NCBI RefSeq assembly: GCF_003966715.1
Contig: NZ_AP018907.1
Location: 1,476,001-1,540,000, forward strand
From: Blastochloris tepida
GTDB lineage: Bacteria > Pseudomonadota > Alphaproteobacteria > Rhizobiales > Xanthobacteraceae
DNA length: 64,000 nucleotides
Direction: 5' to 3'
The position numbers and the translations under genes were made by a program. The notes beneath the pieces are model-generated. The model did not search any database. It was not told the origin of the DNA and saw nothing but the letters and a program-made list of their open reading frames with translations. Within the stretch, counting starts at the first letter, position 1, and each line of letters starts with the position of its first letter. Shown here piece by piece: positions 22,487-23,865 of this stretch.

Positions 22487-22634
22487 GTCTCCCGGCCAAG
22501 CGGCGAAGCCGCGCGCGCCGGGATCGTGCGCCGATAGGAGTCTCTTCTGCTGACGGCCCCGGCTCGGCGCTGCGCGCCGTCCGGGGCGACGACATCTTGG
22601 GTGTCATCCCGGGCAAGGGCCGAAGGCCCGCGAG
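22487..22634 (+). repeat. REP cluster, left flank of the IS110 element
   Basis: Two dyads: CCCGGCC...GCCGGGATCG with an AGGAGTCT...CTGCTGACGG arm, then TCATCCCGGGC...GGCCCGCGAG. The second dyad stops abruptly at the IS boundary. Its missing right half (CCCGGGATCGTTG...GAGTCT...CTGCTGACGG) is found on the other side of the element from 23791. Confidence 0.7.
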
Positions 22635-22640
22635 CAACTG

Positions 22641-23609
22641 TCATGCGGTTTTGGGGTCTCGCCAGGGTTTGTTGTCTCGAATCATGGCGTTGAGGATGGT
22701 CAGGAGCTTTCTGGCGATGGCGATGAGGGCGACCTTAGCGGGTTTTCCGCGGGCTTTGAGGTCGGCGTAGAGCTGTTTGGCCCACGGGTTCCAGTGGATG
22801 GCGGCGAAGGCGGCGAGATAGCAGGCGCGCTTGAGCGCGCGGCGTCCGGCCTCGATATGGGCCGGCCGCCGCGCTTTGCCGCTGTCGTTGCGATAGGGTG
22901 CGCAGCCGCCGATGGCACCGGCTTGGCGGGGGGTGAACCGGCCGAGTTCGGGAGCTTCTGCGAGCAGGACGCGGGCCGTCTTGTTGGCGATCCCCGGCAC
23001 CGAGGTGATGATCTTGGCCTTGGCGTCCATCGCCGGATCGGCGGCGATCAACGCCTCGATGGCCTGTTCGGCCGCGGCGACGGTCTCGCGCAGGGCGGCG
23101 ATTTCGGCATCGAGCCGGGCGGTGATGGCCGCCAGGGTGGGGTGGGCCTTGCGGTTCTCGAGGCGGCGGATGTCGGCCTCGGCGCGGGTGATTTCGCGCA
23201 CCCAGGCGGTCAGGTCGCTCTGCGCTTGCGAGGGCTCCGGGAACGGCCGGCAGGGGTGATGCAGCATGAAGGCGCGGATGATGCGGGCGTCGAGCGGATC
23301 GCTCTTGGCGCGCTGGCCGCAGGCCTTGGCGAACTGGCGGCAGCGCCAGCTGTCGACCTGCAGCACGGTGAGGCCGGCCTCGCGCAGCACCGCGACCGCC
23401 AGGCGTTCATAGCCGCCGGTCGGCTCCAGGCCGGCGGTGGTGAGCCCGGCCTTCACCAGGCGCCTGGCCAAGCGCTGGAGAGCCGCGGGGGTGTTATCGA
23501 CGCGCTCGACCTTGGTGTCGTCGAAGGCGATGTCGAGCCAGTCCTTGGAGACATCGATGCCCACAAGGTGGGTGGCAAGCGGCGTCGGGTGTGGCAGCAT
23601 GGCAAGCAT
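22641..23609 (-). CDS. IS110-family DEDD recombinase (bridge-RNA-guided transposase)
   Basis: 322 residues from ATG 23609; an internal ATG at 23600 is an alternative. The N-terminal RuvC-like DEDD domain has VGIDVSKDWLD (Asp19), GLEPTGGYE and KSDPLDARI. A coiled-coil segment follows at about 150-200. The C-terminal transposase_20 domain has VPGIANKTARVLLAEAPELG, then GAIGGCAPYRNDSGK with the serine expected to be the nucleophile, and the RPAHIEAGRRALKRACY helix. No stop or frameshift is seen, so the element could be active. The start codon overlaps the 3' stem of the proposed bridge RNA. Confidence 0.93.
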   Translation of the reverse strand: MLAMLPHPTPLATHLVGIDVSKDWLDIAFDDTKVERVDNTPAALQRLARRLVKAGLTTAGLEPTGGYERLAVAVLREAGLTVLQVDSWRCRQFAKACGQRAKSDPLDARIIRAFMLHHPCRPFPEPSQAQSDLTAWVREITRAEADIRRLENRKAHPTLAAITARLDAEIAALRETVAAAEQAIEALIAADPAMDAKAKIITSVPGIANKTARVLLAEAPELGRFTPRQAGAIGGCAPYRNDSGKARRPAHIEAGRRALKRACYLAAFAAIHWNPWAKQLYADLKARGKPAKVALIAIARKLLTILNAMIRDNKPWRDPKTA

Positions 23610-23763
23610 CCCAGGCTTGGAAGCGGGGTCAAAAGCCCCGTGCAACTGTTCGGGTTGGCTTGGGACGGACGGCCGCTTCTGCTCGCGACGGCCTCGAAGG
23701 CTCACCCGGGATACGGCGTGCCGCCCGCACCGGCTCGGGGTGGCCACCCCGAGCCGGTGCACC
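23609..23763 (-). ncRNA. Proposed bridge RNA of the IS110-family element
   Basis: On the minus strand, 5' to 3', the region contains these parts.
1. A 34-base perfect palindrome (23760-23727).
2. A stem strand GGGCGGC (23726-23720), which pairs with GCCGTCC (23673-23667).
3. Left-target guide ATCCCGGGT (23712-23704), identical to the flank 23797-23789 on that strand.
4. Hairpin GCCTTCGAGGC (23701-23691).
5. Right-target guide CGCGAGCA (23687-23680), identical to plus-strand flank 22629-22636.
6. A second stem TCCCA (23665-23661), which pairs with TGGGA (23613-23609).
7. Left-donor guide ACAGTTG (23649-23643), identical to the element's 3' end (22641-22635).
8. Hairpin CGGGG/CCCCG (23640-23624).
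9. Right-donor guide TTCCAA (23622-23617), identical to plus-strand 23784-23789 at the 5' end.
The exact transcript ends are not known. Confidence 0.75.
23727..23760. repeat. 34-bp perfect palindrome in the IS110 5' end
   Basis: Centred at 23743/23744, with arms of 17 bases beginning GCACCGGCTCGGG. In RNA it would form a very stable hairpin, in the position of the 5' stem-loop of known bridge RNAs. Confidence 0.9.
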
Positions 23764-23790
23764 CATCAAAGCACAGTTCGCCGTTCCAAC

Positions 23791-23865
23791 CCGGGATCGT
23801 TGCGGGAGTCTGCGCCTTTCCTGCTGACGGTCCCGGGTCTCGCCCTCGCTCGCCCGGGACGACAC
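23791..23865 (+). repeat. REP cluster, right flank of the IS110 element
   Basis: Begins CCGGGATCGTTG and continues with the GAGTCT...CTGCTGACGG arm and a TCCCGGG...CCCGGGACGAC dyad, completing the REP interrupted at 22634. From 23866 to the HlyD-family start nothing else is recognisable apart from its ribosome-binding site. Confidence 0.65.

Follow-up and report, generated by a model that had tools for sequence, protein, structure and literature searches.

Does the noncoding stretch upstream of the recombinase gene at this Blastochloris tepida locus encode a bridge RNA, and do the guides of such an RNA account for the place where the element is inserted? The window (the whole 64,000-nucleotide stretch of DNA that was analysed) contains an IS110-group insertion sequence on the minus strand, at 22635-23788, with 1154 bp reading TGGAAC...ACAGTTG, and an earlier note made from the letters alone proposed that the bases before its recombinase gene hold four guides matching the insertion site and the ends of the element. 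This interpretation is supported. Taken as a whole, the element is very probably an autonomous insertion sequence of the IS110 group that encodes an IS621-type bridge RNA in its upstream noncoding region. Features and coordinates are collected in Table 1.

Table 1. Features of the element and its surroundings, in window coordinates (LTG, RTG, LDG and RDG: left and right target guides, left and right donor guides).
Feature	Positions	Strand	Evidence
IS110-group element TGGAAC...ACAGTTG, 1154 bp	22635..23788	-	22 near-identical copies and an orthologous empty site
DEDD recombinase gene, 322 aa, alternative start 23600	22641..23609	-	Pfam PF01548 and PF02371; match to the IS621 and ISCro4 recombinases; invariant residues
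Bridge RNA with target-binding and donor-binding loop (predicted)	23603..23731	-	Found by covariance model R1 (built on 23 relatives) with 31.3 bits, rough E 3e-6
5' stem-loop, perfect 34-base palindrome	23727..23760	-	Sequence; unchanged in 7 G044 left ends
Target-binding loop: closing stem GGGCGGC/GCCGTCC, inner hairpin GCCT/AGGC	23667..23726	-	Folds so alone; stem covaries
Donor-binding loop: closing stem TCCCA/TGGGA, inner hairpin CGGGG/CCCCG	23609..23665	-	Folds so alone; closing stem weakly supported in relatives
LTG, ATCCCGG + core GT; base 23712 is A in 18 copies, G in 4	23704..23712	-	Sequence, copy alignment
RTG, CGCG + AG (core) + CA (handshake bases)	23680..23687	-	Sequence, ordered-match test
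LDG, ACAGTTGC (ACAGTTG + C)	23642..23649	-	Equals the element 3' end plus core C
RDG, TTCCA + AG (core) + CC (handshake bases)	23614..23622	-	Complementary to GG-CT-TGGAA
Left target in REP, ATCCCGG + target core GT	23789..23797	-	Empty site in G044
Donor core CT, then right target CGCG	22629..22634	-	CT absent from the empty site
Candidate -10-like TTTGAT (4 of 6), 17 bp from a -35-like TTGCTT (3 of 6), existing only at the circle junction	23765..23770	-	Simple hexamer scan without chance control
Neighbouring intact G-type REP, not used as target	23830..23859	+	Repeat pattern search

The protein belongs to the IS110 family, as it carries the PF01548 DEDD domain and the PF02371 domain with the catalytic serine, and it matches the solved structures of the IS621 (E 1.5e-25) and ISCro4 (E 2.4e-28) recombinases. 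The residues D19, E62, D104, D107 and S243 are invariant across 47 aligned sequences (the window sequence among them) and correspond to D11, E60, D102, D105 and S241 as named for IS621 (PMC11208158). The noncoding stretch measures 179 bp to the first ATG and only 6 bp separate the stop codon from the right end, which places the element in the IS110 group rather than IS1111, since the former is defined by a long noncoding region upstream of the gene and a short right end (PMC11208160). With at most five candidates scored per genome, no close relative outside the own genome was found in the family (391 genomes, E 1e-60), the order (397 genomes, 1e-70) or the class (385 genomes, 1e-70). Copies of the element in G044, a genome of another species of the same genus, surfaced in a DNA search and were missed by these protein searches, probably because contig ends fall within the element. 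Proteins at 46-67% identity, about 50 in number, were listed, viral contigs gave a single distant match, the plasmid DNA search returned partial matches only, and the matches from the plasmid protein search all lay below 60% identity.

The own chromosome (3.95 Mb) carries 22 copies at 98-100% identity, and all of them lie in a REP-like repeat, always at the same place in it. One of them (L028, at 3816620-3818420 of the own genome) has a one-base deletion in the recombinase gene and should therefore depend on the other copies. The left flanks read A or G followed by TCCCGGGT, or a one-base variant of this, with CT then added in 4 copies, while the right flanks all begin with CTC. The ends of the element are fixed by the G044 orthologue of the window site, an uninterrupted repeat CGATTCCGGGT/CGCGCGG (the slash marks the junction) that reads GGGT/CGCG around the insertion point and carries one other mismatch, ATTCCGGGT. 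This means that the insertion consists of TGGAAC...ACAGTTG plus CT, placed after GGGT, and that the window copy has the donor core CT and the target core GT. The earlier note let the element reach 23789, which has to be corrected, because the T at this position is target in this copy. In IS621 the LTG comprises nine bases, the core being positions 8-9, the LDG comprises eight, and cleavage of the top strand follows position 9 (PMC11208158); in this register the cut falls exactly where the window copy is inserted, after GGGT, which counts in favour of the bridge RNA.

A core of TTG, suggested by GTTG at both ends, was considered and rejected, since the empty orthologue reads GGGT/CGCG and only one genomic place reads TCCCGGGT...TGCTC, which is better explained as a scar. 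Locus L042 (own genome 2834818-2834857, minus strand) has the repeat GGGTTGCTCGCG, where GGGTTGCTCGCGCAGC has an extra TGCT compared with GGGTCGCGCAGC elsewhere; by its sequence, it looks like a scar from deletion of an element between its two GTTG sequences.

The four proposed guide matches were found as described: the LTG ATCCCGGGT (23712-23704) equals the left flank (23797-23789), CGCGAGCA lies at 23687-23680, ACAGTTG from 23649 equals the 3' end of the element, and TTCCAA (23622-23617) equals the opposite strand of its 5' end. The sequence also contains the palindrome of 34 bases (23760-23727), the two closing stems and the two inner hairpins. However, the limits of several guides had to be redrawn. 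The whole of CGCGAGCA had been assigned to the right flank, but it reads CGCG, AG and CA, and its counterpart (plus strand 22629-22636) straddles the junction, so that AG pairs with the donor core CT and CA with the last bases of the element, TG. The left donor guide is one base longer than ACAGTTG, i.e., ACAGTTGC, and the right donor guide continues beyond its match to the 5' end through AG, pairing with the core CT, and CC, pairing with the target bases GG. The two core bases of the RTG fit the donor core CT; with the target core GT, one of them fails to pair.

Order and sense of the guides (LTG, RTG, LDG, RDG) are those of IS621-type RNAs. With templates taken from the junctions, the ordered match in the IS621 register, which was picked after the sequence had been seen, comprises 34 of 34 bases (30 of 30 without the handshake bases), while the maximum in 5,000 dinucleotide shuffles of the guide-bearing part was 24 in both forms. 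Chance in REP DNA rich in CCCGGG, a concern raised in the earlier note itself, hence does not explain the matches. It could be argued that the noncoding leader originated as a captured piece of REP DNA or serves to regulate the transposase gene, and that its flank matches reflect REP-rich DNA and not guides, as REP-like repeats are abundant (one intact-repeat pattern has 82 matches in the own genome, not all of them necessarily REPs) and the leader is GC-rich with a strong palindrome. Nevertheless, the ends of the element itself are matched by two of the four guides, the ordered match lies far above the shuffles, matches of this kind recur in relatives that have other targets, and a covariance model finds the RNA, which makes such a reading of the leader extremely unlikely.

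Across the 22 copies, the LTG matches the own left flank exactly over nine bases in 18 (in 4 of these CT stands between the match and the element) and differs at one base in the other 4; the match to the right target is looser, with four bases in 11/22 copies and two in 18/22. None of these copies sits at an unrelated site with unchanged guides, the outcome that would have spoken against guidance. All four handshake bases can pair here with the opposite DNA, as they would after exchange. In 30 relatives, the first handshake base of the target loop is invariably C, and the second one pairs in 8; due to this lack of conservation, the second base was dropped as added evidence.

For the structure of the RNA, the leader regions of 23 relatives (36-42% protein identity) were aligned with the window element excluded, and model R1 was built from these 23 of 26 sequences (L052 and L065 were left out as duplicates, and L111 as differently laid out). 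The model finds the RNA of the element with 31.3 bits, a rough E of 3e-6 for 69 kb, while the next match in the window reaches 8.5 bits. None of the 4227 Rfam families matched the window above its gathering score. RNAalifold predicted 26 pairs in the relatives, 11 of them with at least one change on both sides, and 10 of those make up the closing stem of the target loop, where 10 of 10 pairs are so changed. The donor loop was paired by RNAalifold through CCC/GGG, not through the closing stem of the earlier note; a stem of that kind is paired in 82.6% of cells in the relatives, with one pair changed on both sides, and is weaker than the other helices. The conserved two-loop structure is thus borne out by the model match, strongly in the target loop and weakly in the closing stem of the donor loop, and the whole named structure scores above shuffled and slid controls. 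Each module folded separately gives the expected closing stems and inner hairpins, and the minimum-energy fold of the whole RNA differs from the two-loop form (-85.4 vs -82.6 kcal/mol when the latter is forced, a cost of 2.8). All 34 bases of the palindrome are kept in the 7 left ends from G044; among the 22 own copies, L029 departs from it at a single position.

If the guides choose the sites, they should change together with them, and the earlier note had proposed this comparison in homologous elements. Of the 80 relatives that were fetched, 61 have the donor-guide motif CCGAACAGTCG (up to 2 mismatches) in the region upstream of the gene. Of these, 51 had 100 bases downstream, giving 44 distinct loci, 3 of them with none of the three variants sought; in 40 of the remaining 41 (45/46 before removal of duplicates) the 7-base donor guide agrees with the variant before CT in the right end. 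The RTG fits the own right flank better than swapped flanks, with a mean of 6.25 of 8 against 3.39 (0 of 2,000 as high) in 40 distinct loci, obtained from the 61 relatives with the motif through 54 with a recognisable right end. For the LTG the corresponding means are 4.76 and 3.22 (25 loci, 0 of 2,000), with the left ends set by a crude rule and 9/25 loci matching over three bases or fewer. Guides therefore covary with target and donor, as in IS621-type elements, which reproduces for a subgroup the finding of Durrant et al. on the family (PMC11208160). The left junction of L051 seems to read TT where the right one shows CT, so that among L051 and related Rhizobiales elements a target core that differs from the donor core may be widespread.

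The recombinase might instead recognise the hairpin structure of REPs, with the guide matches being secondary, and the location of all 22 copies at one place in REPs would agree with this, as would the use of REPs by other IS110-family elements (PMC11208160, PMC1525189, PMC8450116). We consider it very unlikely, since the relatives use other targets that fit their own guides, and since the REP class in which copies sit (there are two) goes with a single guide base, as described below.

In elements of the IS621 type, the core is expected to be CT at both ends. On the right, CT follows ACAGTTG in 22/22 copies, while on the left TGGAAC is preceded by GGGT in 16, GGTT in 1, GGCT in 1 and GGGTCT in 4, so that the left core is GT in 16, TT in 1 and CT in 5 of 22. 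A uniform rule of CT duplicated at both ends was rejected, as 4/22 copies have CT after GGGT on the left. Cores other than CT are reported to work, with lower efficiency (PMC11208160). Out of 17 empty-site comparisons for 16 copies, 8 were informative (the window copy, L011, L012, L018, L019, L022, L023 and L027, the homology of L012, L018 and L023 being mainly one-sided); L013, L014 and L029 were set aside because they differ at the core, and L009, L017, L024 (twice), L025 and L026 because they align poorly. In the first outcome, a target GGGT/CGCG gains CT on the right (the window copy, L011, L012), and in the second, a target GGGT-CT-CGC ends up with CT on both sides (L022, L027). In the third, a target of the latter kind becomes GGGT/element/CTCGC with no net CT (L019 most clearly; also L018 and L023). 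The first two outcomes are what a cut behind the core would produce, provided that the left junction retains the core of the target and the right junction receives that of the donor; the third does not follow from such a scheme.

Five copies (L018, L019, L020, L023 and L028) fit no simple junction rule. Their junctions read GGGT/element/CTCGC, with the empty repeat GGGTCTCGC where compared (L018, L019 and L023), and it seems that either two target bases were lost or no core was gained.

Among the variable positions of the 1154-bp copy alignment, one falls in a guide, namely the first base of the LTG, and the four copies with G at this base are L011, L014, L016 and L020. All 18 copies with an A guide sit at A flanks, while those with a G guide sit twice at A and twice at G. 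Among the 82 intact matches mentioned above, 59 read GTCCCGGGT and, by a slightly narrower pattern, 15 read GATCCCGGGT; compared with these 15 A and 59 G sites, the placement of the A-guide copies gives a Fisher value of 1.8e-10, or 6.6e-9 if all 23 non-G matches count as A. It can be seen that the A-guide copies avoid the majority class. Within the own genome, the table of guide against flank is weak (2/4 vs 0/18, p 0.026). L011 and L016 have another variant in common and may not be independent.

The association could also arise because A-type REPs are generally favoured or more exposed here, without any role of pairing, and the G-guide copies in the own genome, just four with two at A sites, leave room for this. 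The picture in G044 is reversed, since 7/7 copies with a readable left end are at G flanks there, although A is found at 60 and G at 40 of the first 100 listed of 173 sites (0.4 to the 7th = 0.0016), and we therefore regard a general preference for A-type REPs as improbable. Pairing by the guide base fits the pattern, as G can pair with both classes (G-C and G-T wobble) whereas A can pair with just one of them. Of the 7 G044 copies, L142 alone shows the guide base, which is G there. This copy (on contig C66) is truncated: it keeps the left end, the palindrome and the G-variant LTG, and ends within the target loop, where REP-like sequence follows. Six G044 contigs (L143-L148) end exactly one base before the variable LTG base, which may indicate that the G044 copies are mixed at it. 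An A at element position 13 is common to the G044 copies and L016, which suggests that G is likely the older guide base.

To hypothesize boldly, a single G-to-A change at the first LTG position switched the element from one class of REPs to a second before it amplified in one genome, while the 22 junctions record how mismatched cores are resolved, the target's being retained at the left and the donor's at the right. Taken together, these two propositions appear somewhat more plausible than their denial. In titles and the beginnings of abstracts, which are not proof of absence, we found no report of guide-base polymorphism among the copies of one genome.

The observations can be arranged into the following putative cycle. 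Excision would join the ends of the element around CT into a circle, and the junction of this circle might supply a promoter (TTGCTT-17-TTTGAT) that resembles the consensus weakly; the hexamer scan found no such pair at the left end of the integrated element, and in IS621 the promoter is reported to form at the circle junction (PMC11208158). From there, a bridge RNA of roughly 155 nt starting near the palindrome would be transcribed and bound by the recombinase. Within a REP, its target loop could pair with one strand at ATCCCGG-GT and with the opposite strand at CGCG, and its donor loop could pair with ACAGTTG and TGGAA at the circle junction. The top strands would then be cut after the core and exchanged, leaving the target core on the left and the donor CT on the right, as seen in most copies. 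The first LTG base would choose the REP class, with A guides leading to ATCCCGGGT and G guides to GTCCCGGGT and, by G-T wobble, probably to ATCCCGGGT too, and a change from G to A would have redirected the element before most of its amplification here.

Bridge recombinases are under development as programmable DNA-insertion tools. The element described here is an ordinary member of this recently discovered RNA-guided family, but its natural record of site choice is unusually clean: the variant is compact, it has inserted many times into one chromosome, and a congener offers the corresponding empty sites. Without any engineering, one can read from it how single bases in the target are discriminated, how far wobble is tolerated and what becomes of mismatched cores, as well as a candidate promoter that depends on circularisation. 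It also suggests how such elements may shift targets through point mutation of a guide. This record of natural retargeting merits the attention of specialists.

The closest known system is IS621 of Escherichia coli, as described in PMC11208160 and PMC11208158, which likewise has an upstream bridge RNA with a 5' stem-loop, a target loop followed by a donor loop, and guides in the order LTG-RTG-LDG-RDG. A nine-base LTG that includes the core, an eight-base LDG, the donor core CT, REP targets and DEDD plus serine residues are also shared, as is a promoter at the circle junction, here a weak candidate. Unlike in IS621, the target core here is mostly GT against the donor core CT, the RDG pairs as seven contiguous bases and not as two pieces, the 5' stem is a perfect 34-base palindrome, and the REPs are of another family. 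ISEc21 and other seekRNA elements are also of the IS110 type, with an upstream noncoding region that matches both target strands, and natural redirection by three altered guide bases is described between ISEc21 and its relative ISMch6 (PMC11187229); the candidate redirection here involves one base and segregates among the copies of one genome. ISPpu9 of Pseudomonas putida has seven copies in REPs and small RNAs encoded beside the transposase gene, a likeness by description only (PMC8450116). Within the genus, an IS110 element of genome G074 (L155-L157) has the same kind of RNA, with 118 bits for each of three fetched copies in model R1, and its donor guide ACAGTCGC equals its right end, as in the element here. 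It differs in having about 60% DNA identity over 965 bases and the target ACCCCT/CACCC (the right side from L155 only). Judged by eye, the right donor guide of the G074 element is split in two (TT...CAAG) as in IS621, while it is contiguous in the element described here.
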